Assembly: GCA_023258975.1 (NCBI GenBank)
Contig: JAHFRD010000003.1
Coordinates: 1-64,000 of the forward strand
Reading direction: 5' to 3'
DNA: 64,000 bases
Origin: Hydrogenophilales bacterium
GTDB taxonomy: Bacteria; Pseudomonadota; Gammaproteobacteria; Burkholderiales; Thiobacillaceae
Shown in pieces: positions 10,251-31,823 of this stretch. The notes beneath the pieces were generated by a model, which was not told the origin of the DNA, ran no database searches, and saw nothing but the letters and a program-made list of their open reading frames with translations. The stretch's first letter is position 1. Each line of letters starts with the position of its first letter. A program made the position numbers and the translations under genes.

Positions 10251-10967
10251 ATGAAAATCCACCATCACGCGCTGTTCCGCCCTCTCGCCCTTGCTTGCGC
10301 GCTATGCGTGCCGCTGATCGCGGCCAAGCCCGCCGCCGCCTGCGGCGCCGAACCCATCCTCGGTGAAATCTGCACCTTCGGCTTCAACTTCTGCCCCAAT
10401 GGCTACCTCAGCGCCAGCGGCCAGATGTTGCCCATCCAGCAATACAGCGCCTTGTATTCCCTGTATGGCACCTATTACGGCGGCAACGGTACAACCACCT
10501 TCGCTCTGCCCGACCTGCGCGGCCGCGCGGTGGTCGGCACCGGCACCACCCCCGGCAGTGGCGTCAATGTCCAGATCGGCCAGACGCGGGGCAGCGAACA
10601 GGTGACCCTGAACGTCAACCAGATGCCCGCCCACACCCACGCGGCCCAATACACGTCACCGACCCTGACCCAGCCCACGGTCAACGTGACGGTCAACGCC
10701 AAGCAAGCGACGGCGACGACCGGCACCCCCGCCGCCGGCATGCAAATGGGCGACAGCGGGCGCACCACCATCTATGTCGCCAGCACCGCCGCCGGCAACA
10801 ACGTCGCCCTGGGCGGCGTCAGCGCCACAGCCAGCGGCGCCGCCCTCACCGGCGGCGGCGTGGCCATCGGCGTGGCCGGCGCCAACAGCCCGGTCGCGAC
10901 CCTGCCGCCGGAACTGGGCCTGACGGCCTGTATCGCCACCCAGGGCATCTACCCGCAGCGCCCGTAA
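10251..10967 (+). CDS. secreted phage-tail-collar domain protein (microcystin-dependent-protein family)
   Basis: A protein of 238 residues starting at ATG 10251. The frame runs upstream to 9963 but only this start gives a signal peptide (LACALCVPLIAAKPAAACGA). The tail-collar domain follows at about 35-95 with the family hallmark CPNGYLSASGQMLPIQQYSA, YGGNGTTTFALPDLRGRAVV and GTGTTPGSG. The remainder is Thr/Ala/Gly-rich and probably fibrous. Such proteins form trimeric adhesive or tail-tip structures. It lies 102 bp upstream of the giant DUF4347 protein and its export genes, in the same orientation, so it may be co-exported or decorate the same surface structure. That link is inference. Confidence 0.8.
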   Translation: MKIHHHALFRPLALACALCVPLIAAKPAAACGAEPILGEICTFGFNFCPNGYLSASGQMLPIQQYSALYSLYGTYYGGNGTTTFALPDLRGRAVVGTGTTPGSGVNVQIGQTRGSEQVTLNVNQMPAHTHAAQYTSPTLTQPTVNVTVNAKQATATTGTPAAGMQMGDSGRTTIYVASTAAGNNVALGGVSATASGAALTGGGVAIGVAGANSPVATLPPELGLTACIATQGIYPQRP

Positions 10968-11069
10968 CAACCACCCCGGGGAAACCGGCCACGAGGCCTT
11001 TCCCCGGCATGGAATCGCCAATTCCCAACCGGCCGGATCAACCGGCCGGTTTCCTGAAAGGGCCGCCGC

Positions 11070-14000
11070 ATGAACCGCCACCATCCCCTGACCCGCCTCG
11101 GCCTCGGCCTGGCCGCCGCCTTCGCCCCTCCCCGCCGCGCCGATGGCGCCCAGGCCCGAACGGGCCTCGCCACACGGAGCGGCTTGGGCTTCATGGCCCT
11201 GGAGCCGCGCATCCTGTTCGACGGCGCGGCGGTGGCCTCGGTGGTGGATGCCGCCCCCCCGCCGGACGCCGCGGCCCACGCGTTGATCCCGGAAGCGCCC
11301 GCCCTGGTGCAAGTGGGCGCGGCGGAGCCGGCCCGGGACGGCGGTGGGAAGGAAGTCGCTTTCGTCGATACCTCGCTGGCCGACTACAAAACCCTGATTT
11401 CCGGCATTCGCGCCGGCGTGGAAATCGTGGAAATCGACGGCACGCAAAGCGGCCTGGCGCAGATCGCCAAGTGGGCGGAAAGCCATAGCGGCTACGACGC
11501 CATCCATATTCTTTCCCACGGCTCCGAGGCCACCTTGCACCTCGGCTCGGACATCCTGACCAACGCCAACCTGACCACTCCGGAGGCGCGGGCTGAACTG
11601 GCGAAACTGGGTACTTCGCTGAATGCCGGTGGCGATCTGCTGATCTATGGTTGCGACATCGCGGCCGGCGCCGACGGCCAGCAGTTCCTTGCGAACCTAC
11701 ATGACGCCACCGGCGCCGACGTGGCGGCCTCAATCGACAACACCGGAGCGACAGGCCAGGGTGGCAACTGGACGCTGGAAACGAGTTCCGGCGCCATCGA
11801 AACCGTGGCCTTGAGCGCCCCGATCTATGGCGGCCTGCTGGCTACGTTTACTGAAAACTTTGCCGTCCCGGCCGGCAAAATCAACGGTGACTGGATCGAA
11901 TCCGACGGTGGTTACAGCACGAATGGCGGGTCGGCGGCTTCAACGGGGCCAACCAACCATTTCACCTATACGGAAAGCGGCGTGGACTTCCGCATCACCC
12001 TGAATGACGGCGGTGATGGCATGGGGCTGTATTTCCGAGATAGATTTGGCGAGGGCGACTCGCCCTCGCTTGAGTTCGACTCCGGGCGCGACGGCAACCT
12101 TGGAGCGCCGATTTCGGGCACCACCGAAAGCTTCACCATCACCCGCGCCGATGGCCAAGCTTTCACCCTCGGCTCCCTCTGGGCCGATCCGGGAACTTCT
12201 TCGGGCACGGTCACCATTACGGCCAAATTGAGCGGCGGCACGGTCGCCACCCAAAGCGTGGCAAGTGCCAGCACATACAGTTTCGGCAACATCGGCGTCG
12301 ACACAGTCACCTTCTCGTCCACCGACTTTTATTTTTTCGAACTCGACTCGTTTGCCGGCAATACCACCTATACGCCCCCCAACGCCACTCCCACCATCAG
12401 TGCCGGCGGCAGCACCGCCTTCACCGAACAAACGCCCGTGGCCATCGCCGGCGGCATCACGGTCAACGATACGGATGGCGACGCCGACTGGAACGGCGGC
12501 ACCTTGCGCGCGCAGATCACCGCCAATGCCGGCGCCGGCGACACGCTGTTCCTGCCCACTTCCGACCCTGGCGGCGGCGCCATCTGGATCAGCGGCAGCG
12601 ACGTCAAGACCGGCGCAACCAGCATTGGCACGGCCAGCGCCGGCAGCGTCAGCGGCGGCACGGCCTGGACCATCACCTTCAACGCCAGCGCCAGCAACGC
12701 CCTGGTGCAGAGCACGGCGCGGGCCATCCAATTCGACAACACGGGCGACGACCCCGGTTCCAGCAGCCGCACCGTCACCTTCACCGCCACCGACAAGAAC
12801 GCGGCGGCGGCATCCGCCACCCAGACCGTCGCCGTCACCCCGGTCAACGACGCGCCCACCCTCAGCGCCACGGGCGGCACGCCGACCTACACCGAGAATG
12901 GGGCGGCGGTCGATCTCTTCAGCGGCGTCTCGATCAGCGCCATCGAAAGCGGCCAGAGCATCAATCAGTTGACGCTCACGGTAAGCAACGTGGCCGATGG
13001 CGGCAGCGAGATTCTGAGCATCGACGGCAGCGACGTGGCGCTGACCCACGGCAACTCGGCCACCACCGCGAGCAACGGCATGACCGTTGCGGTCAGCCTC
13101 GCCGGCGGCACCGCCACAGTCACCATCAGCAAGGCCGCCGGCATTGGCGCGGTGGCGGCGCAAACCCTGGTCGATGGCCTCGGTTACCGCAATGCGAGCG
13201 AATCCCCCGACACGACGAACCGTGTGGTCACCCTCACCAGCATCCGCGACAGCGGCGGCACGGCCAATGGCGGCGCCGACACCACCAGCCTCTCGCTTGC
13301 CGCGACCGTCACCGTCGTCTCGGTCAACGACGCCCCGCTGACCGGCGGCTTCGCCAACTTCAGCGCCACCGAACAGGGCGCTTCCGCCTATGTGATGAGC
13401 GGCTTCACCGTGTCCGACGTGGACGCGGCGACTTTCAATGGCGCCGTGCTGACCGTCTCGCAGACGGCTTATTACACCGGCGAATACCTCTCCATCGCCA
13501 ACGTCGGCAGCGTCACCTACAACGCTGGCAGCGGCGCGGTCAGCCACGGCGGCACCCAGGTCGCCACAGCCAGTGGCGGTAACGGCAATGCGCTCGAACT
13601 CACCTTCAACGCCAATGCCACGGCGACCATCGTGCGCGACGTGGGCCGCTCCGTGGTGTTCTGGACCACCACCGACGACCCCACCGCCAGCAGCGCCACC
13701 CGCACCGTCCACATCGACTTGAACGATGGCGGCAACACGGGTTCCGGCGGGGCGCAGCCCGCCACCCAGGGCACGGAAACCCTCACCATTACTCCCGTCA
13801 ACGACGCCCCCGTCGCCACCGCCGGCGCCACGCTGGCCTACACGGAAAACGGCGCGGCGGCGGTGATAGACGGCACCATCACCCTCAGCGATGCCGACGA
13901 TACCCAGATCAGCGGCGCCACGGTGGTCATCAGTGCTGGTTTCACCACGGGCGATCTCCTGCAAGGCACGCAACCCGGTGTCACCTATAGCTGGAATGCC

Positions 14001-17000
14001 GGCACCCACACACTTACCCTGAGCGGCACGAATAGCCTGGCCGTCTACGAGACCGCCCTGCGCGGCGTGAAGTTCAGCTCCGCGTCCGACAACCCCACCG
14101 CCATTTCCGCCAGCCGCACCCTCACCTGGCAGGTCACCGATGCCAACTCGGATGGCGTCGGCGCGACGACCAGCGCAGGCGTCACCAGCACGGTCAACAT
14201 CACGGCGAGCAATGACGCCCCGATCCTGGATGACACGCAATCTCCCACCCTCACCGCCATCGACGAAGACGTCTCCGATGGCGGCAACACCGGCACCACG
14301 GTGGCCGCAATGGTGATGAATGGTTCCATCACCGATCCGGACGGCGCAGCGGTGGAAGCCATCGCCGTCAGCGCGGTGGACGGTAGTAACGGCACCTGGC
14401 AATACAAGGTTGGCGCGGGCTCCTGGACCACGTTCGATTTCAGCGGCGGCAATGCGGGCAAGGCCCTGTTGCTGGACAGCGGGGACAGCCTCCGTTTCGT
14501 TCCCGCTGCGAATTACCACGGCACGGTCAGTGGCCTCACGTTCCACGCCTGGGACAAGAGCGCCGGAAATGCCGGCGACTACCAGACGGTCAGCGGCAAT
14601 ACGGGGAGTGGCGGGCCGCTGTCCAGCGCCACGGATAGCGCCTCCATCGTGGTCAGTCCAATCGCCGACACTCCCTCGGTGACCAACGCCGGCACCACCC
14701 CCGGCGCGCAGACCACGTCCGGCCTGGTGCTCGACCGCAACGCGGTGGACGGCGCCGAGGTCACCCATTTCAAGATCACCGGCATCAGCAACGGCACGCT
14801 GTATCAGAACGATGGCGCCACGGCCATCCACAACGGCGACTTCATCACCTACGCCCAGGGCCATGCCGGCCTGAAGTTCACCGACAACGGCGGCGGCGAC
14901 GGCAGCTTCACCGCGCAAGCGTCCCTCAGTGGTGTCGATGCCGGCCTGGGCGGCGCCCCGATCACCGCGACCATTTCCGTCGGCATCGGCGTGGCCGACG
15001 CCACGACCGACGAGGATACCGACTCCGGCGCCATCGCCATCACCCGCGGCGTCGGCCAGACCCACATCAAGATCAGCGGCATCAGCGGTGGCGCGCTGTA
15101 CGCGGATGCCGGCTTCACCGCGCAAATCCACGCCGGCGACTTCATCGCGGCCGCCGGAGCGACCACCAACGTCTATTTCCGCCCCACACCCGACGCCACC
15201 AGTTCCGGCGCCTTTACCGCGCAAGGCGCCACCGCCGGCAACGATGGCGCACTGGTGGCCGGTACCGCGACATCCACGATCAGCATCAACCCGGTCAACG
15301 ACGCCCCGGTGACCGGCGGCTTCGCCAATTTCAGCGCCACCGAACAGGGCGCCTCGGCCTACGTGATGAGCGGCTTCACCGTGTCCGACGTGGACGCGGC
15401 GACTTTCAACGGCGCCGTGCTGACCGTCTCGCAGACGGCTTATTACACCGGCGAATACCTCTCCATCGCCAACGTCAACAACGTCACCTACAACGCGGGA
15501 ACCGGGGCCGTCACCTACAACGCCACCCAGGTCGCCACGGCGGCCGGCGGCAACGGCGGCGCCCTCCTCATCACCTTCAACGCCAGTGCCAACCAGGCCG
15601 CCGTGCGGGCCGTGGGCCGCTCCGTGGTGTTCTGGACCACCACGGATGACCCCACCGCCAGCAGCGCCACCCGCACCGTCCACATCGACTTCAGCGATGG
15701 CGGCAACACGGGTTCCGGCGGGGCACAGTCCGCCACCCAGGGCACGGAAACCCTGACCGTCACGGCGGTCAACGACCGACCCACCGCCACGGCGGGCGCC
15801 ACGCTCGCCTATACGGAGAATGGCGCGGCGGCGGCCATCGACGCCGGCATCAACCTTGCCGATGTCGACGACACCCAGATCAGCGGGGCCACGGTGAGCA
15901 TCAGCGCCGGGCTCACCACGGGCGACGTTCTCGGTTTCACCACGCAGAACGGCATCAGCGCCAGCTACAACGCCGCGACCGGCGTCCTCACCCTGAGTGG
16001 CGGCGCCAGCATCGCCCACTATCAGGCCGCCCTGCGTTCGGTGACCTATCACTCGACCTCCGACGACCCCACCGCGACCTCGGCCTCGCGCACGATCACC
16101 TGGACGGTGACCGACGCCAACGGCGATGGCGCCGGTGCCCAGACCAGCGCGGGCGCCACCAGCACGGTCAACATCACGGCGGCCAATGACGCTCCGGTGG
16201 TGCAAACCGCGCTGACGAACCGAACCGGCAGCACCGGCGTGCCCTTGAGCTTCGCGCTACCCGCCTCGGCGTTTTTCGATGTCGATAGCGGCGACGTGCT
16301 GACCTGGAGCGCCACTCGTGCCGATGGCGGCCCGCTCCCGGCCTGGTTGAGCTTCGACGCCGCCACCCGGACGTTCTCGGGCACACCGGGCGCCGCCGAC
16401 GCAGGCATCTTGAACCTCAAGGTCACGGTCAACGATCCGCACGCGGCCAGCGCCGAACAGACCTTTTCCCTGCGCGTCGATGCGCCCCCACCACCCCCAC
16501 CCCCGCCGCCACCACCACCACCGCCACCTCCCCCCGCGCCCCCACCGCCGCCTCCCCCACCCCCGCCGCCGCCCCCGGTGCCGGAACCGGTGCCGCTCGC
16601 GCCGCCCCCACCGCCCCCGCCTCCTCCCCCGCCCCCCTCGCACCCCGCGGGCGATACGGTGTCGCCTGGCGGCACCGGCTTTGTCGGTTTCGCCGCGCCC
16701 GGATCGGGGGGGCTCGCCGTGCTCAACCTCCCACCCGCGCAATCGTTCCAGGCCGGGGAAAGCGTCAGCTTCCAACTGCCGAGCGCCACCTTCGTGGTGT
16801 CCGGCGACAGCCCGCGACTGGCGGTGAGCGCACGCCTCGCCGACGGCCATTCCCTCCCCGCCTGGTTGTCGTTCGACCCGATCCACGGCGGCTTCCAGGG
16901 CATGCCGCCAACGGGATTCAGCGGAGAGTTGAAGATCGTCGTAATCGCCCGCGACGGCACCGGCAGGGAAGTCAGCACGACCTTCAACCTGGAAATTGGC

Positions 17001-17147
17001 GGCGCCCGGCCACGCGGCCATCTGGAGCGGGACAAGGCCATCTTCGCCCTCGGCCGCCCATCGCTCGCCGACCAGTTCGCGCGCCAGGACAAGGCCCGCG
17101 CGCTGCTTGAACACGCCGCCCGCGCCGCGCGCCCGCGCGCCGGCTGA
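11070..17147 (+). CDS. giant DUF4347 / cadherin-like surface or secreted protein
   Basis: This protein has 2025 residues. At residues 43-53 it carries the LEPR-type motif ALEPRILFDGA, then DUF4347 (about 95-255) with HILSHGSE (His150) and LLIYGCDIAAG (Cys195). Next comes a long array of cadherin/VCBS-like beta-sandwich repeats (about 260-1700), many ending in VNDAP and starting LAYTENGAA. A putative-Ig (He_PIG-like) domain follows at about 1710-1800, then a 51-residue proline-rich spacer and a last He_PIG-like domain. The tail contains FALGRPSLADQFARQ, which may be an export signal. There is no Sec signal peptide, as is usual for type I substrates. The export genes follow directly. It is probably an adhesin or biofilm matrix protein. 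Confidence 0.82.
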   Translation: MNRHHPLTRLGLGLAAAFAPPRRADGAQARTGLATRSGLGFMALEPRILFDGAAVASVVDAAPPPDAAAHALIPEAPALVQVGAAEPARDGGGKEVAFVDTSLADYKTLISGIRAGVEIVEIDGTQSGLAQIAKWAESHSGYDAIHILSHGSEATLHLGSDILTNANLTTPEARAELAKLGTSLNAGGDLLIYGCDIAAGADGQQFLANLHDATGADVAASIDNTGATGQGGNWTLETSSGAIETVALSAPIYGGLLATFTENFAVPAGKINGDWIESDGGYSTNGGSAASTGPTNHFTYTESGVDFRITLNDGGDGMGLYFRDRFGEGDSPSLEFDSGRDGNLGAPISGTTESFTITRADGQAFTLGSLWADPGTSSGTVTITAKLSGGTVATQSVASASTYSFGNIGVDTVTFSSTDFYFFELDSFAGNTTYTPPNATPTISAGGSTAFTEQTPVAIAGGITVNDTDGDADWNGGTLRAQITANAGAGDTLFLPTSDPGGGAIWISGSDVKTGATSIGTASAGSVSGGTAWTITFNASASNALVQSTARAIQFDNTGDDPGSSSRTVTFTATDKNAAAASATQTVAVTPVNDAPTLSATGGTPTYTENGAAVDLFSGVSISAIESGQSINQLTLTVSNVADGGSEILSIDGSDVALTHGNSATTASNGMTVAVSLAGGTATVTISKAAGIGAVAAQTLVDGLGYRNASESPDTTNRVVTLTSIRDSGGTANGGADTTSLSLAATVTVVSVNDAPLTGGFANFSATEQGASAYVMSGFTVSDVDAATFNGAVLTVSQTAYYTGEYLSIANVGSVTYNAGSGAVSHGGTQVATASGGNGNALELTFNANATATIVRDVGRSVVFWTTTDDPTASSATRTVHIDLNDGGNTGSGGAQPATQGTETLTITPVNDAPVATAGATLAYTENGAAAVIDGTITLSDADDTQISGATVVISAGFTTGDLLQGTQPGVTYSWNAGTHTLTLSGTNSLAVYETALRGVKFSSASDNPTAISASRTLTWQVTDANSDGVGATTSAGVTSTVNITASNDAPILDDTQSPTLTAIDEDVSDGGNTGTTVAAMVMNGSITDPDGAAVEAIAVSAVDGSNGTWQYKVGAGSWTTFDFSGGNAGKALLLDSGDSLRFVPAANYHGTVSGLTFHAWDKSAGNAGDYQTVSGNTGSGGPLSSATDSASIVVSPIADTPSVTNAGTTPGAQTTSGLVLDRNAVDGAEVTHFKITGISNGTLYQNDGATAIHNGDFITYAQGHAGLKFTDNGGGDGSFTAQASLSGVDAGLGGAPITATISVGIGVADATTDEDTDSGAIAITRGVGQTHIKISGISGGALYADAGFTAQIHAGDFIAAAGATTNVYFRPTPDATSSGAFTAQGATAGNDGALVAGTATSTISINPVNDAPVTGGFANFSATEQGASAYVMSGFTVSDVDAATFNGAVLTVSQTAYYTGEYLSIANVNNVTYNAGTGAVTYNATQVATAAGGNGGALLITFNASANQAAVRAVGRSVVFWTTTDDPTASSATRTVHIDFSDGGNTGSGGAQSATQGTETLTVTAVNDRPTATAGATLAYTENGAAAAIDAGINLADVDDTQISGATVSISAGLTTGDVLGFTTQNGISASYNAATGVLTLSGGASIAHYQAALRSVTYHSTSDDPTATSASRTITWTVTDANGDGAGAQTSAGATSTVNITAANDAPVVQTALTNRTGSTGVPLSFALPASAFFDVDSGDVLTWSATRADGGPLPAWLSFDAATRTFSGTPGAADAGILNLKVTVNDPHAASAEQTFSLRVDAPPPPPPPPPPPPPPPPPAPPPPPPPPPPPPPVPEPVPLAPPPPPPPPPPPPSHPAGDTVSPGGTGFVGFAAPGSGGLAVLNLPPAQSFQAGESVSFQLPSATFVVSGDSPRLAVSARLADGHSLPAWLSFDPIHGGFQGMPPTGFSGELKIVVIARDGTGREVSTTFNLEIGGARPRGHLERDKAIFALGRPSLADQFARQDKARALLEHAARAARPRAG
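13321..13790 (+). repeat. intragenic long repeat, copy 1
   Basis: Near-identical at DNA level to 15292-15761 (constant offset 1971 bp). The first 185 bp and the last 150 bp differ at only a few positions, mostly third codon positions, while the middle is more diverged. It encodes a cadherin-like module starting GGFANFSATEQGASAYVMSG. Confidence 0.85.
15292..15761 (+). repeat. intragenic long repeat, copy 2
   Basis: Partner of 13321-13790 within the giant gene. High DNA identity in the outer parts suggests recent duplication or gene conversion between modules. It provides a substrate for in-frame deletion or expansion of the stalk by recombination. Confidence 0.85.
16485..16637 (+). repeat. 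poly-proline tract in the giant protein
   Basis: 153 bp of CCN codons encode 51 residues, nearly all proline, broken only by single Ala residues and by VPEPVPLA. It separates two He_PIG-like domains. The codons CCC/CCA/CCG are mixed, so this is selected at protein level and is not a pure homopolymer. Tracts of this kind act as rigid spacers, for example across peptidoglycan or a secretion channel. Confidence 0.9.
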
Positions 17148-17197
17148 TCCGGCCCATCCATTGAACCAACGACAAGAACGACACACAGGAACCCGCC

Positions 17198-18748
17198 ATG
17201 AACAAGACCGCTCCCCCCCGCTTCACCCGCCCCCTCCTGGCCACGGCCCTGGGCTTGGCCCTGGCCGGCTGCGCCGTCGCCCCGATGCCGTTCACCCAGG
17301 CCGAGCGCGCCGCTCGCGTGCAGGCCGACCAGGCGCGGCTGAAGGCGGAGCAGGAGGCGGTGACGGCGCCGCTCACCCTGGCCGATGCCGTGGCGCGCGC
17401 GCTGAAATACAACATGGAACATCGCCTCAAGATGATGGCCAGCGCCCTGGCCGCGAATCAGGCCGATCTCGCCAAATACGACCTGCTGCCGAGACTCACC
17501 GCGCAGGCCGGCTACAACCGGCGCGATTCCTACCCGGCCTCGTCCAGCATGGATGTCGCCACTGGCACCCAGTCCCTGGTGCCCTCGACTTCGCAGGAGA
17601 AGACCCGCGAGACCGCCGATCTCGCCCTCACCTGGAACATGCTCGACTTCGGCGTCAGCTACTGGCAGGCGCGGCAGCAAGGTGATCGCGCCCTCATCGC
17701 CGAGCAGCAGCGGCGCAAGACCGCGCAGACCCTGATCCAGAACGTGCGCCAGGCTTATTGGCTGGCGGCCGGCGCGCAGCAACTGGAGAGCCGGGTGGAT
17801 GGCCTGTTGAAAGAAATCGACCTCGCCCTGAACGACAGCCGCAAGTCGCGCAAGGAACGCCTGAAACCCTCGCTGGACGCGCTCGCCTACCAGAAATCCC
17901 TGCTTGATCTGGTGCGCCAGCTGGAACCGATCCGCAATGAGCTGGCGCAAGCCCGGCCGCGCCTGGCCAGCCTGATGAATCTCGCCCCCGGCACGGCTTT
18001 CTCCCTGGCCGTGCCGGCCCGGCTGGAGCCCCCCGTGCTCGGCGCCAAGCCCGAGGCGCTGGAGGAACAGGCGCTGCTGAATCGCCCGGAATTGATCGAG
18101 GCGGATTACCAGGAACGCATCGGCGTGGCGGAAACCAAAAAAGCCCTGCTGCGCATCTTGCCCGGCATCGAATTGTCGGCCGGCGCGCACCGCGACGAAA
18201 ACCGTTTCCTGGTGGACAAGAACTGGGCCGACGGCGGCCTGCGCCTGACCTGGAACCTGCTCGGCCTGCTCTCGGCGAAGCAATCCATGCATGCCGCCGA
18301 ACAACAACTGGAAATCAGCCGCGCGCAGCGCCTGGCGCTGAACATGGCCATCCTCTCGCAGGTGCGTATCGCCTACCGCGACGTCGAGGGCAAGCTGCGC
18401 GAATACGGCATGGCCGACGAGGTCAACGAGGTCGATGCCGAGATCCAGGCAGCCACCCGCGCCGGCGCCGAATCCGGCGCGACCGACCGCATGCAGTTGA
18501 TCCGCGCGGAAGCCGCCAGCGTGGTATCGGAGTTGCGCCGCTGGCAGTCGTATTCCAACCTCGCCCTGGCCTGGGCGCAGTTGAATGCCAGCATCGGCGT
18601 CGATGCCATGCCGGAGAAAGTGGCCTCGCATGAATTGCCCGCCCTCGCCGATGCGTTCCAGCGCCAAGCGCAAGCCAGCGCGAAACTGGCGGCGATTCCG
18701 GCCACGCGCCCCTGGTGGCAGCCGGCGCGGGCGCGCGGCGATGAGTGA
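17198..18748 (+). CDS. TolC-like outer-membrane efflux lipoprotein
   Basis: 516 residues with a lipoprotein signal peptide ending LALAGC (Cys25). The body is the alpha-helical TolC/OEP repeat architecture: first repeat ADAVARALKYNMEHRLKMMA, then LDFGVSYWQARQQGDRALIA and TLIQNVRQAYWLAAGAQQLE; second repeat around LNRPELIEADYQERIGVAET. TolC proteins form the outer-membrane exit duct of type I secretion and efflux systems. It begins 51 bp after the giant gene and overlaps the following HlyD-like gene by 8 bp (ATGAGTGA). This links it to export of the giant protein rather than to drug efflux. Confidence 0.88.
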   Translation: MNKTAPPRFTRPLLATALGLALAGCAVAPMPFTQAERAARVQADQARLKAEQEAVTAPLTLADAVARALKYNMEHRLKMMASALAANQADLAKYDLLPRLTAQAGYNRRDSYPASSSMDVATGTQSLVPSTSQEKTRETADLALTWNMLDFGVSYWQARQQGDRALIAEQQRRKTAQTLIQNVRQAYWLAAGAQQLESRVDGLLKEIDLALNDSRKSRKERLKPSLDALAYQKSLLDLVRQLEPIRNELAQARPRLASLMNLAPGTAFSLAVPARLEPPVLGAKPEALEEQALLNRPELIEADYQERIGVAETKKALLRILPGIELSAGAHRDENRFLVDKNWADGGLRLTWNLLGLLSAKQSMHAAEQQLEISRAQRLALNMAILSQVRIAYRDVEGKLREYGMADEVNEVDAEIQAATRAGAESGATDRMQLIRAEAASVVSELRRWQSYSNLALAWAQLNASIGVDAMPEKVASHELPALADAFQRQAQASAKLAAIPATRPWWQPARARGDE

Positions 18749-19463
18749 ACGCGCACTTTGCCTCGCGCTTTGCCTCGCGCTCCCCCTTGCCGCCCACGCC
18801 GAAGGCCGCGTCCGCGCGCAACTGGTCTCGCCCAACCAGACCACGCTTTCCACCGAAATCGCCGCGCGCCTGGCGGAACTGCCGTTCCGCGAGGGGCAGG
18901 CGTTCAAGGCCGGCGACACCCTGGCCAGCTTCGATTGCGCCTTGTTCACCGCGCAGCGCGATAAGGCCGAGGCCCTGGAGGAACTCGCGCGGCAGGGGCT
19001 GGAAACCGCGAACAAACTGCGTGAACGTGGCATGAACAGCGACATGGAATGGCATCAGGCAAAAGCGAAACTCAAGGAAACCGCCGCCGACGCCCAGGCC
19101 GCGCGCGCCACGTCCAGCCGCTGCGCGATCAGCGCGCCATTCGACGGCCGCGTCGCCCGCCTCGGCGTGGCGCAATACCAGTTCGTCACCGCCGGCACCC
19201 CGCTCATGGAAATCGTCGATACCCGCAAGCTGGAAGTGCAGGCCGTGGTGCCCTCCCACTGGCTGGCCTGGTTGCGCGCGGGCCACGCTTTTACCCTGCG
19301 TGTCGATGAACTCGGACGCGACTACCGCGCCCATGTGGCCCGTCTCGCCGCCCGCATCGACGCGGTCAGCCAGATGGCGCCAGTGGTCGGTGAAATCGAG
19401 AACCCCGGTTCGGAGCTGCTACCCGGCATGAGTGGCTGGGCGACCTTCCGTGGCAAACGCTGA
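18741..19463 (+). CDS. HlyD-like periplasmic adaptor (short)
   Basis: 240 residues starting at ATG 18741 with a signal peptide (LCLALCLALPLAAHAEG). The split biotinyl-lipoyl barrel-sandwich can be followed: AELPFREGQAFKAGDTLASF, a short coiled coil ALEELARQGLETANKLRERG, then CAISAPFDGRVARLGVAQYQ. A beta-barrel part follows (VDTRKLEVQAVVPSHWL). It resembles RND/HlyD membrane-fusion subunits but is short, and the hairpin has only one helical pair. Start and stop overlap both neighbours, so it is in a tightly coupled operon of export components. Confidence 0.85.
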   Translation: MSERALCLALCLALPLAAHAEGRVRAQLVSPNQTTLSTEIAARLAELPFREGQAFKAGDTLASFDCALFTAQRDKAEALEELARQGLETANKLRERGMNSDMEWHQAKAKLKETAADAQAARATSSRCAISAPFDGRVARLGVAQYQFVTAGTPLMEIVDTRKLEVQAVVPSHWLAWLRAGHAFTLRVDELGRDYRAHVARLAARIDAVSQMAPVVGEIENPGSELLPGMSGWATFRGKR

Positions 19464-20805
19464 CGAGGCGTCGGCGGCCGACGCCGCCGCGCGGCTCGCC
19501 GCCCTGCTCCAGCTCGAACGGCGCGCGCGCGAGGCGGCCAATGTGGCCGAACTCGGCTTCGTCGCCCTCAACGAAACCCGGCAACTCCTGGATTACCGCC
19601 AGGCCGCGCTGTGGCTGCCGAACGAGCGCGGCAACGCGCGCCTGGCACTGTCCGGCCTGCCCCGCGCGGAAACCGACGCGCCCTACGGCCAGTGGCTGCA
19701 ACGGGTGTTCCGCAAGGTTTTTGGTGCCCAGGACAAGGCCGCCCGCGTGAGCGCGGAAAGCCTGCCTGGCGACCTCGCCGAGGATTGGCCGCAATGGCTG
19801 CCCGCCCACGCTCTGCTGCTGCCCCTGGCGCGCGCGGAAAATCGCCTGGGCTGGCTGCTGCTGGCGCGCGAACAGGACTGGGACGGCGCCGAGATCGCCC
19901 TCGCGGAAGAACTGGCCCATGCCTATGGCCATGCCCTGGCGCTGCTGGCGCGGCGGCCGGCGGCCTGGCGGCGCGCCCTCGACGGCGGCGGCGCGCGCCG
20001 CGCCCTGGCCTGGTTGGCGGCGGCGGGTGCCGTGCTGGGTGTCGGCCTGATTCCGGTGCCGCTGTCCACCCTGGCGCCCGCCGAAGTGGTGGCGAAATCG
20101 CCGTTCCTGGTGCGCGCGCCGATCGAGGGCGTGATCGACCACTTCGAGGTGCGCCCAAACCAGCCGGTCAAGGCCGGCCAGACGCTGTTCGAGTTCGACA
20201 CCACCAGCCTGCGCAATCGCAGAAGCCAGGCCGGCGGCGCCCTGGCGGTGGCCTCGGAAGAGTTCCGCCAGGCCGCGCAACTGGCCGTCACCAACGACAA
20301 GGGGCGCCTGGACATGGGCGTGCGCCAGGGCGAAATGGCCAATCGCGCGGCGGAAGTGCGCTATTCGCAACAGTTGCTGGAACGCGGCCGGGTGCGGGCG
20401 CCGCGCGACGGCGTGGTGATCTTCGGCGACCCCGCCGACTGGATCGGCCGCGCCGCGCGGGTGGGTGAAAAAATCCTGGAAATCGCCGATCCGGAACAGA
20501 TGGAATTGCTCATCCACCTGCCGCTGGGCGACGCCATTCCTCTGGAAACCGGTGCCCGCGTCGAGCTGTTTCTCACGGTGGCGCCCCAGACCCGCTACCC
20601 CGCCGTGCTGGAATACGCCGCCTACCGCGCCGAGGCGCTGCCGGGCGGCGGCATGGCCTATCGCCTCAAGGCCCGCTTCAGCGGCGACCGGCCCACCCGC
20701 ATCGGCCTGGCCGGCACCGCCAAACTGTACGGCGCGCCGGTGCCCCTGGCCTATTACGTGTTCCGTCGCCCGCTGGCGGCGCTGCGGCAATGGTTGGGCT
20801 GGTAA
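19432..20805 (+). CDS. GAF domain fused to a membrane-anchored HlyD-like adaptor
   Basis: About 457 residues. It starts with GTG at 19432 or more likely GTG at 19450; no ATG is available. Residues about 10-175 form a GAF-like domain (LLQLERRAREAANVAELGFV, LLDYRQAALWLPNERG, LLPLARAENRLGWLLLAREQ). Then comes one membrane helix (about 188-206, ALAWLAAAGAVLGVGL) and a HlyD-type barrel sandwich (FLVRAPIEGVIDHFEVRPNQ; VRAPRDGVVIFGDPADWIG). The layout places a ligand-sensing GAF domain in the cytoplasm and the adaptor in the periplasm. It overlaps the previous gene by 14-32 bp and the next by 16 bp. I have no firm precedent for its role; gating or energising export in place of an ABC protein is a guess. 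Confidence 0.82.
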   Translation: MAGRPSVANADEASAADAAARLAALLQLERRAREAANVAELGFVALNETRQLLDYRQAALWLPNERGNARLALSGLPRAETDAPYGQWLQRVFRKVFGAQDKAARVSAESLPGDLAEDWPQWLPAHALLLPLARAENRLGWLLLAREQDWDGAEIALAEELAHAYGHALALLARRPAAWRRALDGGGARRALAWLAAAGAVLGVGLIPVPLSTLAPAEVVAKSPFLVRAPIEGVIDHFEVRPNQPVKAGQTLFEFDTTSLRNRRSQAGGALAVASEEFRQAAQLAVTNDKGRLDMGVRQGEMANRAAEVRYSQQLLERGRVRAPRDGVVIFGDPADWIGRAARVGEKILEIADPEQMELLIHLPLGDAIPLETGARVELFLTVAPQTRYPAVLEYAAYRAEALPGGGMAYRLKARFSGDRPTRIGLAGTAKLYGAPVPLAYYVFRRPLAALRQWLGW

Positions 20806-22913
20806 CCCTGCCGCCGCTACGCCAGGATCTCGCTCTCTACCCCGGCGAGCCCGAAGCGGACGGTAGCCCGACCTGGACCCTGCACGACCCGGCCGCGAAT
20901 CGTTTCTACCGGATCGGCTGGGCGGCCTTTGAAATCCTCTCGCGCTGGAGCCTGGGCAACGCGGAACAGGTGGCGCGCGCGGTGCGGGAACAAACCACGC
21001 TGCAAAGTGACGCGGAAGCGGTGCTCGATCTGGCCGAGATGCTGCGCCACAGCCATCTCTGCCAGGCAGGCACGGCCGTCGATAGCCTGCGTCTGGCGCG
21101 AACACTGGGCGACAGCCGCAAACACTGGGCGAAATGGCTGCTGGAACACTACTTGTTCTTCCGCGTGCCGCTGTGGCGGCCGCTGCGATTGCTGCGCGCG
21201 CTCACGCCCCGGGTGGGCTGGGCCTACGCGCGCGGCTTTCACCTCACCCTGGCGATGCTGTTGCTGGCCGGCCTGTATCTGGTCTCGCGGCAGTGGGACG
21301 CCTTCATTCATTCCTTCAGCGCGTTCGACCACTGGAGCGGCTACCTCGGCCTGGGGCTGGCGCTGACCTTCTCCAAGGTATTGCACGAATTCGGCCATGC
21401 CCTCACCGCCACCCGTTACGGTTGCAAGGTGCCGACCATGGGGGTGGCGTTCCTGGTGATGTGGCCGATGCTCTACACCGACGTCAACGAGGCCTGGAAA
21501 CTGCCCTCGCGGCGCCTGCGCCTGCGTATCGCCGGCGCAGGCATCGCCACGGAACTGGCGCTGGCGGTGCTGGCCACCTTCTTGTGGAGCTTTCTGCCGG
21601 AGGGGCCGTTGAAGGCGGCCGCGTTCATGCTCGCCACCAGCACCTGGCTGGTGACCCTGGCCATCAATGCCAGCCCGTTCATGCGTTTCGACGGTTACTT
21701 TCTCTTGTGCGACTGGATCGGCATCGACAACCTGCACGCACGATCCTTCGCCTTCGGCCGCTGGTGGCTGCGCGAGCGGCTGTTCGCCCTGGGCGCGCCG
21801 GCGCCGGAAGCGGCGTCGCGCGGCCGTCAACACTTCCTGGTGGCCTTCGCCCATGCCACCTGGCTGTATCGCCTGATTCTGTTCCTGGGTATCGCGCTGC
21901 TGGTCTACCACTTTTTCTTCAAGGCGCTGGGCATCTTCCTCATGCTGGTGGAACTGGGCTGGTTCATCGTCCGGCCACTGGCGATGGAGGCGGGCGTCTG
22001 GTGGCAATCACGAGAGGCGATCATGAAACATCCTCGCTCATGGGCCACGCTGGCCCTGTTCACGGCGCTTGCCGCCCTGCTCGCCCTGCCCTTGCAAACC
22101 ACGCTGCAAGCCCCCGCCATGCTCACCCTGGAAGCGCACCAGGCCATCCGTGCGCCGCTGGCCGGTGTCCTGCAAGCCGCGCCGCCGCGCGTCGGCCAGG
22201 CCGTGCGCCAGGGCGAGGCGCTGTTCCACCTGCGTTCGCCCGATACCGATTTTCAGCTCGCCCACGCGCGCCTGCGGGAACAACCACTACGCCTGCAACA
22301 GGAGCGGCAGGCGCTGGATGAGAGCCTGCGCCGCCAGGGCGGCGTCATCGGCAAACGCCAGGAGGAGGCGGCCGGCTCCATCCAGGCCTGGAGCCGCGAA
22401 CAGGCTCGGCTGACGATCAACGCGCCACTCGCGGGTGTGGTACTGGAGGTGAACGACCAACTCAACATGGGCGGCTGGGTGGCGGCCGACGAATGGCTGG
22501 CCTTCGTCGGCCAGCCGCGCGGCGCGCGAGTCGAGGCCTACATCGAGGAGGCCGACCTGGAACGCCTGCGCCCGAACGCGCGCGCGCGCTTCGTCCCGGA
22601 AACCCCGGAATGGCCCGTGTTTCAGTGTCGCCTGGCGGAGATCGACCGCAGCAATGCCGCCATCCTGGAACACCCGGCCCTGGCCATGCCGAATGGCGGC
22701 ACCCTGGCGGTGAAGGGCGATGGCCGCGATGGCCGCGATGGACTGATTCCCGCCGCCAGCCACTTCCGCGCGCGTCTCGACCGGTGCGACCCGGCCATCG
22801 CGCCGCCGCGCGAGTTGCGCGGCACCGCGCATATCGAGGCCGAACGCTCCAGCCTGTCGGCGCGCTGGTGGCGCGCCGCGCGGGCGCTGTTGCAGCGGGA
22901 GACGGGGTTCTGA
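20790..22913 (+). CDS. PqqD-like / M50 site-2-protease-type membrane protein fused to a HlyD-like domain
   Basis: 707 residues. Residues about 30-95 look like a PqqD-type winged-helix peptide-binding domain (NRFYRIGWAAFEILSRWSLG). A multi-helix membrane region follows with the zinc motif HEFGH (His199, Glu200, His203) and a downstream NASPFMRFDGYFLL carrying Asp301, together the active site of the M50/S2P family. From about 430 there is another membrane helix and a barrel-sandwich domain (HQAIRAPLAGVLQAAPPRVG; LTINAPLAGVVLEVNDQLNM). Related proteins, the 'putative peptide zinc metalloprotease' type, accompany peptide export. Here it could process or release the giant protein in or at the inner membrane. 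It overlaps the GAF-HlyD gene by 16 bp. Confidence 0.85.
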   Translation: MVGLVTLPPLRQDLALYPGEPEADGSPTWTLHDPAANRFYRIGWAAFEILSRWSLGNAEQVARAVREQTTLQSDAEAVLDLAEMLRHSHLCQAGTAVDSLRLARTLGDSRKHWAKWLLEHYLFFRVPLWRPLRLLRALTPRVGWAYARGFHLTLAMLLLAGLYLVSRQWDAFIHSFSAFDHWSGYLGLGLALTFSKVLHEFGHALTATRYGCKVPTMGVAFLVMWPMLYTDVNEAWKLPSRRLRLRIAGAGIATELALAVLATFLWSFLPEGPLKAAAFMLATSTWLVTLAINASPFMRFDGYFLLCDWIGIDNLHARSFAFGRWWLRERLFALGAPAPEAASRGRQHFLVAFAHATWLYRLILFLGIALLVYHFFFKALGIFLMLVELGWFIVRPLAMEAGVWWQSREAIMKHPRSWATLALFTALAALLALPLQTTLQAPAMLTLEAHQAIRAPLAGVLQAAPPRVGQAVRQGEALFHLRSPDTDFQLAHARLREQPLRLQQERQALDESLRRQGGVIGKRQEEAAGSIQAWSREQARLTINAPLAGVVLEVNDQLNMGGWVAADEWLAFVGQPRGARVEAYIEEADLERLRPNARARFVPETPEWPVFQCRLAEIDRSNAAILEHPALAMPNGGTLAVKGDGRDGRDGLIPAASHFRARLDRCDPAIAPPRELRGTAHIEAERSSLSARWWRAARALLQRETGF

Positions 22914-29799: not shown

Positions 29800-29938
29800 T
29801 CCGCTCGCGGGCCGATTGCCACGATAGCTGCGGTAGTGACGTCGGCGCTTCGTGGTTGCCGTGATCGCGCCGCGAGCGGCGCTCCTACCTTGGGGCCAGC
29901 CGCCTATTTAAGACGCCGGCAAGGATGCCGACGCTACA
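29800..29938. repeat. palindromic repeats downstream of the exporter gene
   Basis: Contains an imperfect inverted pair (CGCTCGCGG at about 29803 against CCGCGAGCG at about 29870) and, at 29913-29938, a half unit of the tgtagcgccggc family. The half unit is oriented opposite to the copy at 31824. The last bases overlap the stop codon of the exporter gene (29934-29936). Confidence 0.65.
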
Positions 29939-31739
29939 ACTCTGTTCCCTTCTCTTCCCTGAGTTGCAGCCGCCACATCGCGGCATAGCGTCCGTTCGCC
30001 GCCAGCAGCACGGCGTGGCTGCCGCGTTCGGCGACGCGGCCGCCTTCCAGTACAAGGATTTCATTGGCATCCACTACCGTCGAAAGACGATGGGCGATGA
30101 CCAGGGTGGTGCGGTTTTCGGCGATGCGCGCGAGTTCCTCGCCGATGGCCTGTTCCGTGGCGGTATCAAGCGAGGAGGTGGCTTCGTCGAACACCATGAT
30201 GGGCGGATTTTTCAGGATGGCGCGGGCGATGGCCACGCGTTGTTTTTCCCCACCGGAAAGTTTCAGGCCGCGTTCGCCAACCACGGTGTCGTAGCCATCC
30301 GGCAGGCTGACGATGAAGCGGTCGAGGCTCGCCGCGCGCGCGGCTTCCAGCACTTCCGCGCGAGAGGCATCGGGACGGCCGTAGGCGATGTTGTGGTAGA
30401 GGCTGTCGTTGAACAGCACGGTGTCCTGGGGAACCATGCCAATGTGTTTTCTCAGGCTGGCCTGGGTGACGGCGCGGATGTCCTGGCCGTCGATCAGGAT
30501 GCGCCCGGCGGTGACTTCAAAGAAACGGAACAACAGGCGCGACAGCGTCGATTTCCCCGCTCCGCTGGCGCCGACCACGGCCAGCGTGCGGCCGACCGGG
30601 ATGGTGAAGCTGACTTCTTCCAGGATCGGCCGGCGCGGATCGTAGGCGAAGCCGACCCGCTCGAAGCGCACCTCGCCCCGTTCCACCCGAAGTTCGCGCG
30701 CGTCCGGCGCATCGACGATCTCCGGCGGCCGCCGTAGCAGGCCGAACAGTTTTTCCATGTCGGTGAGCGCGTTGCGGATTTCCCGGTAAATGGTGCCGAG
30801 GAAGTTGAGCGGAATGAATAACTGGATCAGGTAGGCGTTGACCAGCACCAAATCGCCCAGGGTCATGCTTTTGTCCGCCACCCCCTGGGCCGCCAGCCCC
30901 ATCATGGCGGTGACGCCGATGGCGATGATGAAGGCCTGGCCGGCGTTGAGCCAGGCCAGGGAAATCTCGCTTTGCACGGTGGCGTCCTCGGCGCGGCGCA
31001 GATCGGCTTGCAGACGGTCGGACTCGTATTGCTCGTTGTTGAAGTACTTCACCGTCTCGTAGTTGAGCAGGCTGTCCACCGCGCGCGCGTTGGCGCGCGA
31101 GTCGCTCTCGTTCATGGCGCGGCGGAATTGCAGGCGCCAGTTGGTGATGGCGATGGTGAAGGCGAGGTAGACCGCCAGAGTGAGTAGTGTGATGCCGCCG
31201 AACCAGGGGTCGTATTTGGCGAACAACACCCCGGCCACCATGAGGATTTCCAGCAGCGTGGGGCCGATATTGAACAGGGTGAAGTTGATGAGAAAACGGA
31301 TCGAGCGCGCGCCGCGCTCGATGTCCACGGCGATGCCGCCAGTGCGGCGTTCCAGGTGGAAGCGCAGGGATTGCGCGTGCAGGTGTTTGAATACGTCGTG
31401 AATGGCGCCGCGCATGGCGCGTTGCAGCACCCGCGCGAAGATCGCGTCGCGCAGTTCGGTGAAGGCGGTGTTGCCGAACCGGAGCAGGCCGTAGAGAACG
31501 ACGAACAGGAGGGGCGCGGCCAGAGCGGAAGCGTCGACGTGTCCCACCCGGTCGACGATTTCCTTCAACACCAGCGGCACCGAGACATTCGCCAGTTTGC
31601 CGCCCAGCAGCAATACGAACGCCGCCAGCACCCGCCCCTTGTAGCGCCAGACATAGGGCGCCAGCGACCACGCCGCGCGCCACTGGCCGGCGGAGGTGTG
31701 GGCGGTCATGGAATCGGAACGGGCGTGGTCGCGGGCCAT
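29934..31739 (-). CDS. Atm1/HMT1-type ABC exporter
   Basis: About 601 residues from ATG 31739; ATG 31709 is an alternative, and the extension to 31820 is probably not translated. The six-helix ABC transmembrane domain comes first, with YVWRYKGRVLAAFVLLLGGK and VDSLLNYETVKYFNNEQYES, the latter a hallmark of the mitochondrial Atm1 / bacterial HMT1 branch. The nucleotide-binding domain follows: Walker A VVGASGAGKSTLSRL, signature LSGGEKQRVAIARAI, Walker B PIMVFDEATSSLD, H-loop VIAHRLST. The branch exports glutathione-linked sulfur species or metal-glutathione conjugates. That fits a sulfur-active cell, though the cargo here is not known. Confidence 0.87.
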   Translation of the reverse strand: MARDHARSDSMTAHTSAGQWRAAWSLAPYVWRYKGRVLAAFVLLLGGKLANVSVPLVLKEIVDRVGHVDASALAAPLLFVVLYGLLRFGNTAFTELRDAIFARVLQRAMRGAIHDVFKHLHAQSLRFHLERRTGGIAVDIERGARSIRFLINFTLFNIGPTLLEILMVAGVLFAKYDPWFGGITLLTLAVYLAFTIAITNWRLQFRRAMNESDSRANARAVDSLLNYETVKYFNNEQYESDRLQADLRRAEDATVQSEISLAWLNAGQAFIIAIGVTAMMGLAAQGVADKSMTLGDLVLVNAYLIQLFIPLNFLGTIYREIRNALTDMEKLFGLLRRPPEIVDAPDARELRVERGEVRFERVGFAYDPRRPILEEVSFTIPVGRTLAVVGASGAGKSTLSRLLFRFFEVTAGRILIDGQDIRAVTQASLRKHIGMVPQDTVLFNDSLYHNIAYGRPDASRAEVLEAARAASLDRFIVSLPDGYDTVVGERGLKLSGGEKQRVAIARAILKNPPIMVFDEATSSLDTATEQAIGEELARIAENRTTLVIAHRLSTVVDANEILVLEGGRVAERGSHAVLLAANGRYAAMWRLQLREEKGTEL

Positions 31740-31823
31740 TGGTGAATTTATGCGTGAGGCGCCAGCGAAGTAACCGGCCCGCCGCCGAAACGCGTTTGAA
31801 TATTGCGCCAGCGTATCCATCGC

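Follow-up and report, generated by a model that had tools for sequence, protein, structure and literature searches.

The 64,000-nucleotide stretch analysed here (the window; contig JAHFRD010000003.1 of a Hydrogenophilales bacterium) carries six plus-strand genes at 10251–22913, which encode, in order, a phage-tail-collar protein, a giant protein of 2025 residues, a TolC-like outer-membrane factor, a short HlyD-type adaptor, a GAF-HlyD fusion and a fusion of M50 protease and HlyD parts (M50-HlyD). The gene set is conserved in many bacteria and is likely to represent an undescribed kind of protein export machine without an ATP-binding cassette (ABC) pump. Its role is probably the dedicated export and processing of giant proteins with an N-terminal LEPR tag. 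This reading builds on conservation of the genes, their co-occurrence, the correspondence of tag form with M50-HlyD group, the fold of a RiPP recognition element (RRE; RiPP, ribosomally synthesized and post-translationally modified peptide), the protease site, HlyD/TolC homology, and the absence of type I ABC exporters from the operon runs and, above cut-off, from 10 of 11 other genomes tested.

Conservation of the locus and its tie to LEPR-tagged giants

The four machine genes encode the TolC-like protein (17198–18748; all window coordinates are on the plus strand unless stated), the short adaptor (18741–19463), GAF-HlyD (19432–20805) and M50-HlyD (20790–22913; 707 residues). They overlap by 8, 32 and 16 bp in that order. 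An earlier sequence-only reading had placed the six genes on one strand at these positions and put the overlaps at 8–32 bp, and both statements agree with our measurements. The giant gene (11070–17147) and the collar gene are merely close, with gaps of 50 bp between giant and TolC and 102 bp between collar and giant.

With the window M50-HlyD as query, relatives were found at E 1e-20 or better in 42 of 276 genomes of the class. They split into NEAR relatives, which are close to the window protein and include an intermediate subgroup, and distant FAR relatives; these are analysis labels from a single-query search, in which FAR members are possibly undercounted. From a scan of named genomes that gave at least 596 stretches, the best 80 loci were retained; they come from alpha-, beta-, gamma- and deltaproteobacterial groups, Magnetococcales and Nitrospira. 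The order giant, TolC, HlyD, GAF-HlyD, M50-HlyD recurs among them. By automatic calling, 74 of the 80 have GAF-HlyD, 55 have TolC and 49 have a short HlyD, counts that are approximate because the open reading frame (ORF) caller is plainly wrong in places (e.g., L086 and L104), and 18 loci have less than 4 kb of upstream sequence. Since the same architecture is found in distant taxa, the six-gene arrangement is not due to chance. One Gram-negative-type locus (L129) lies in a bin named Mycobacterium sp. and is probably a mis-binned contig. The M50-HlyD genes of L051 (G167) and L050 (G052) look degraded or split, suggesting that the system can decay.

The sequence-only reading had proposed a search for co-occurrence with LEPR/DUF4347 proteins, and this association was found. 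DUF4347 is present in 35 of the 276 class genomes, 28 of which also carry M50-HlyD (p 1.4e-21), and the NCBI LEPR-8K model (NF012209) matches 28 genomes, 24 of them with M50-HlyD (p 2.5e-19); these counts ignore phylogeny, and the genome-wide queries included M50-HlyD, with TolC, HlyD and GAF-HlyD outside the query set. None of the four LEPR-8K exceptions has a full M50 part: two (G103 and G210) have very short frames, one (G066) is a fragmented genome with a broken match to M50 region residues 160–227 (E 2.2e-5, one stop), and one (G189) looks real. In the seven DUF4347 genomes without M50-HlyD, a combined profile matches only the HlyD part. Five of the six DUF4347 proteins read from these genomes (all but G269) lack the tag, and three of those five begin with a Sec- or transmembrane-like segment by eye.

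The tag of the window giant, LEPRILFDGA at residues 44–53 (11199–11228), was identified by reading the sequence. It belongs to the D-type (xxFDGA and kin), one of two tag forms. Tags were read in 30 of the 35 DUF4347 genomes, six of the 30 being without the system. The D-type accompanies the NEAR group in 8 of 8 cases and the S-type (xxLSAD and kin) the FAR group in 15 of 15 (p 2e-6; 30 DUF4347 proteins read), with tag classes that were defined after the sequences were seen and patterns that allow variants. Two genomes with both systems, the window's own (G000) and G267, were counted as NEAR because the protein read adjoins the NEAR operon; each also carries an S-type giant. Moreover, all 12 tagged giants from named NEAR loci carry the D-type, one non-giant ORF having been dropped. 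In a tree of 37 M50-HlyD proteins, the D, S and intermediate types each form one clade (support 96/98, 100/100 and 99/97, respectively), some labels of both forms being taken from a LEPR protein that the genome encodes at an unlinked site. Because the tag form follows the M50-HlyD group, reading of the tag by the RRE domain is the most economical account. Collectively, these results support one conserved system tied to LEPR/DUF4347 giants.

The window's genome holds both systems, the NEAR system of the window and a FAR system on contig C9. The latter (L005/L056, G000:C9:40000-79999), which lies outside the window, comprises an LEPR-XLL giant in an open frame of 7,978 residues, a DUF3467 protein, a GAF-HlyD with a longer N-terminal part, M50-HlyD, a SecA-like ATPase and HlyD. 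To the sequence-only reading, the present analysis adds this second system, the RRE fold, and the N-terminal tag in two forms.

Domains, fold and active site of the machine proteins

The domain labels of the sequence-only reading held for the identity of the six genes and, as a predicted fold, for the PqqD/RRE-like domain; the GAF label falls under the Pfam cut-off (22.9 versus 28.6 bits), and PqqD has no Pfam match in the window protein. The TolC-like protein was identified by its family match (OEP), with a lipoprotein signal (LAGC) seen by eye, and the short periplasmic adaptor by its HlyD/RND-type (RND, resistance-nodulation-division) family match, with a Sec-type signal peptide by eye. GAF-HlyD comprises the GAF-like domain, one membrane span by hydropathy and an HlyD part. 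M50-HlyD, assigned by family match, alignment and hydropathy, has six hydrophobic stretches plus the HExxH helix and is the sole multi-pass protein among the four machine proteins. Its hydropathy suggests that the N-terminus lies in the cytoplasm and the HlyD part in the periplasm.

In M50-HlyD, the HExxH residues H199, E200 and H203 (21384–21398) and the distal D301 of the FDGY motif (21690–21692) are invariant in 20 of 20 aligned sequences, the window protein included. D301 is presumably the third zinc ligand, by analogy with site-2 proteases (S2P). The protease site, HExxH plus a distal Asp as in M50/site-2 proteases, is intact as judged from the alignment. Additionally, the membrane part matches the S2P-type protease core of 3b4r at the HExxH region (E 2.5e-4), and residues 435–689 (22092–22856) form a HlyD/membrane-fusion part with a MacA/MexA-like fold in the structure search.

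The N-terminal domain of M50-HlyD (residues 1–95; 20790–21074) has no match to any Pfam family. It was modelled separately, since structure searches with the whole model returned only the HlyD part. Folded alone, it shows three strands followed by three helices, as in RRE structures (predicted local distance difference test score, pLDDT, 90.1), and RiPP/PqqD proteins account for 13 of the 15 best structural matches. Pfam PqqD matches 3 of 35 M50-HlyD sequences (best E 0.0034), and the FAR M50-HlyD of the window's genome scores above the PqqD cut-off (26 versus 23.4 bits). A weak sequence match to an unrelated PDB family (E 0.3) was set aside as chance. Based on the predicted structure, the domain has an RRE/PqqD-like fold with putative leader binding.

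The inner-membrane engine

The absence of an ABC ATPase from the cluster, as reported by the sequence-only reading, was confirmed: the sole ABC match among window ORFs is MsbA-like and lies elsewhere on the minus strand (29934–31820). An odd tRNA-like ARAGORN call (anticodon atgt, 31599–31689, minus strand) overlaps this ORF and is probably false. Nor do homologous loci regularly contain an ABC gene, an outcome with which the sequence-only reading withstands the refutation check that it had set itself. ABC-type ATPases occur in the same-strand run of 3 of the 80 named loci (L084, MsbA-like; L110, PtuA-like; L141, sugar/B6-importer-like), and no type I exporter was found among the ABC ATPases of these operon runs in the 80 loci. 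Several ABC neighbours were considered as exporters and rejected: that of the intermediate locus L067 is Uup (ABC-F), that of L099 is MacB, those of L120, L134 and L139 (and L141) resemble importer ATPases, that of L108 is YbbA/LolD, and that of L116 is the ABC protein of a pyrroloquinoline quinone-dependent alcohol dehydrogenase. The ABC neighbours of L097 and L152 match no family at E 1e-70, and L101 and L118 have weak ABC matches.

These parts could belong to ordinary type I secretion, with the ABC ATPase encoded elsewhere and the locus supplying only adaptors, outer-membrane channel and cargo. Type I systems employ HlyD and TolC parts of this kind, and because HlyB-type (C13:113088-115166) and LssB-type (C22:157740-159803) exporters above curated cut-offs are encoded elsewhere in the window's genome, an ABC protein could act in trans there. 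However, among the 47 NEAR genomes with the system, the LssB type is above cut-off in just 13. PrtD and HlyB searches covered 12 of the 47, namely, the window's genome plus the 11 that score lowest for LssB; the LssB, PrtD and HlyB types were the exporter families searched genome-wide. None of the three is above cut-off in 10 of the 11 non-own genomes, including the single-contig G198, although in many genomes only a portion of the first-look candidates was scored (19/93, 55/93 and 44/92 in G198) and sub-threshold relatives exist, such as a full-length one at 402 bits in G297. The remaining genome, G301, has a PrtD type above cut-off. We therefore regard ordinary type I secretion as unlikely.

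FAR operons contain GAF-HlyD, M50-HlyD, HlyD and often a SecA-like protein of about 650–730 residues. Of about 28 FAR places, the surroundings of 19 were inspected, five of them with 1.5 kb flanks only, and the SecA-like gene is present in 13 of the 19 (L005, L038, L053, L054, L055, L068–L071, L075 and L032–L034); L035, which ends at a contig edge, was left out of the count. All three FAR SecA-like proteins scanned have the SecA DEAD, P-loop and preprotein-binding domains. For the protein of the window's genome, the best stretch covers about the first 60–70% of SecA models and scores below every SecA/SecA2 cut-off shown. Of the 12 genomes searched for PrtD and HlyB types, only G000 and G267, which both possess a FAR system, carry a clear second SecA-like gene; two other matches are weak and fall below cut-off. 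The search found not even a first SecA in G208, where a missing second copy is therefore uninformative. The SecA-like gene beside FAR M50-HlyD points to a Sec-type motor. The suggestion of the sequence-only reading that the protease and GAF adaptor may replace the usual engine found no support.

A related possibility is that M50-HlyD itself forms the inner-membrane conduit without a dedicated ATPase, driven by the proton motive force or by folding outside the cell. It is the only multi-pass machine protein, and its fusion to an adaptor resembles the joining expected of an inner-membrane pump; however, its membrane part has an S2P-type protease core, no channel homologue appeared in the searches run, and the FAR SecA-like genes argue for a motor, which leaves this possibility improbable. 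Least probable is that the proteins process or sense and do not export, with RRE-M50 (related to RiPP maturation proteases) cleaving LEPR leaders, GAF (a sensor module) and HlyD serving as signalling or peptide-export modules and the giant leaving otherwise, since many genomes place TolC and three HlyD parts next to the giant, an arrangement that is difficult to account for unless the system includes export across the outer membrane.

For the favoured export and processing machine, we propose that the RRE domain of M50-HlyD, cytoplasmic by hydropathy, binds the LEPR leader. The giant would then cross the inner membrane, probably via a Sec motor, which may be the housekeeping SecA in the NEAR group and the dedicated SecA-like ATPase in the FAR group. 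Leader trimming would fall to the intramembrane protease. A conduit to the surface may be formed by the lipoprotein TolC together with the three HlyD parts, and the GAF domain might gate or tune this conduit.

Several observations weigh against this machine. Some M50-HlyD genes, those of L041 (G174) and L044 (G099), are separated from the rest of the machine genes and have DctM- or peptide-binding-protein genes as neighbours. The LEPR match of G189 lies in a 7373-residue frame in a genome without an M50 part, G216 has a tag variant (LEKRIVFDAA) but no M50-HlyD, and the FAR genome G067 has a DUF4347 protein without the tag, another of its proteins being tagged S-type (L193). The tag classes, as stated above, were set after inspection. 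The Foldseek E value of the RRE match is just 0.02. The SecA-like gene was unseen in six of the 19 FAR loci (L065, L072, L073 and L074, and, with flanks of just 1.5 kb, L030 and L031) and in all 80 named NEAR loci, so that Sec use by the window's group is inferred from the FAR group alone. Finally, although the giants start with a short basic stretch followed by LEPR-xx-FDGAA and, by hydropathy only, show no obvious Sec core ahead of the tag, their best 12-residue hydropathy (0.90–2.43 in 13 giants) overlaps that of five Sec-type controls (1.91–2.83).

Collectively, we consider the chances about even that the machine is an undescribed Gram-negative secretion class, in which an adaptor-fused RRE intramembrane protease reads an N-terminal LEPR address and hands giants to TolC, the engine is Sec (housekeeping, or a dedicated SecA-like ATPase in one group) and not an ABC ATPase, and two mutually specific address forms stand side by side in one cell.

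The giant cargo, neighbouring genes and known systems

Behind its tag, the window giant contains DUF4347 (11355–11813; Pfam E 4e-50, with comparison to relatives), He_PIG, Cadherin_4, a repetitive Ig/cadherin-like body, a Pro-rich stretch and a C-terminal motif. In 17 DUF4347 sequences, C100 (YGC) is invariant and H51/H55 (SHG) are nearly so, a pattern resembling the motif of clan-CD cysteine peptidases. Peptidase_C80 weakly matches two of the 17 (best E 0.027), and the search returned no caspase-type PDB match for DUF4347. Self-cleavage by this domain is a guess. PDB 9qpe chain G, named a DUF4347 domain-containing protein, is a match at E 2.6e-4. The C-terminal motif, GRPSLADQF (17052–17078), lies 31 residues before the C-terminus and is conserved in part of the relatives only. 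A regular expression for it fits 32 of 46 long ORFs adjoining NEAR operons (one of which, in L081, is not a giant) versus 11 of 757 other ORFs, having been derived from the same sequences on which it was scored. It fits none of 12 further C-termini (NEAR, intermediate and FAR pooled), two of which are poor (L073 ends in masked letters and L049 is a 96-residue ORF), with near misses SFSEQL (L045) and TLSQQL (L057). The motif was therefore rejected as a general export signal and taken as confined to some lineages.

The collar gene (10251–10967; PF07484, E 1.7e-23) starts with ATG at 10251 and encodes a Sec-type signal peptide by eye. Collar genes lie near related systems in 9 of the 80 named loci, mostly in Chromobacterium and relatives (L087, L091, L093–L095, L100, L105, L107 and L144); in most Chromobacterium/Phytobacter-type loci, the gene is downstream on the opposite strand, beyond a gene of about 175 residues. 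No collar gene occurs in 18 class-level NEAR loci or in 0.39 Mb of other loci, a control that is too small. The tie of the collar protein to the export system is uncertain. The cluster is flanked by LptD- and SurA-like genes (by eye) on its 5' side and by phosphoribulokinase on its 3' side.

Type I secretion, exemplified by HlyBD-TolC and LapBCE-LapA, shares with the window cluster the HlyD-family adaptors, the TolC-family outer-membrane factor and a giant repetitive protein. In contrast, the window cluster has no ABC ATPase, its adaptors are fused to GAF and RRE-M50, and an N-terminal tag is conserved in place of a general C-terminal signal. The RRE-M50 or M50 region is shared with RiPP intramembrane metalloproteases, namely, daptide NF041824 (E 1.5e-43) and YydH/LiaK NF058609 (E 9.5e-8), whereas the window protein is HlyD-fused and scores under the NCBIfam cut-offs, and the partner is not a short peptide but a protein whose length ranges from roughly 900 to several thousand residues. 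In PEP-CTERM/exosortase-type sorting, likewise, many cargo proteins carry a short tag that is paired with a single dedicated membrane protease; here, the tag is N-terminal, and the protease is of the zinc M50 type and linked to HlyD/TolC. Similar to accessory Sec (SecA2), many FAR operons have an extra SecA-like ATPase; unlike it, this ATPase is paired with M50-HlyD and HlyD and is unseen in the window's group. LEPR-XLL (NF012209) giants have the same N-terminal LEPR core. The only NF012209 match in the window's genome is in the S-type system on C9; the model does not match the D-type window giant, and it matches four other D-type genomes weakly (E 2e-4 to 0.005).

In the open-access full-text literature, we found no paper describing such a system and no published link of the LEPR-XLL domain to a transport or protease partner. 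A giant Vibrio protein is described as containing an LEPR-XLL domain (PMC10868602). DUF4347 appears in the putative type VI secretion system effector PA0256 (PMC8262886), and a table on stationary-phase Burkholderia thailandensis also lists it (PMC12322963). HlyD and M50 are absent as words from the main text of two RRE papers (PMC12710340 and PMC7470986). The excerpts of a review of tripartite systems (PMC8277102) lack GAF and contain one unrelated M50 passage (residue M507), and those of PMC12114271 are unrelated to the system.

If the proposed machine is correct, it would explain the route by which a large class of LEPR giants exits the cell, and the LEPR-XLL domain would gain a function. 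RRE leader recognition would extend from small peptides to giant proteins, and HlyD-TolC conduits would work without an ABC, RND or major facilitator superfamily (MFS) pump. Two questions would become directly testable: the identity of the factor that reads the LEPR tag, and the ability of a SecA-like ATPase to power a HlyD-TolC path.
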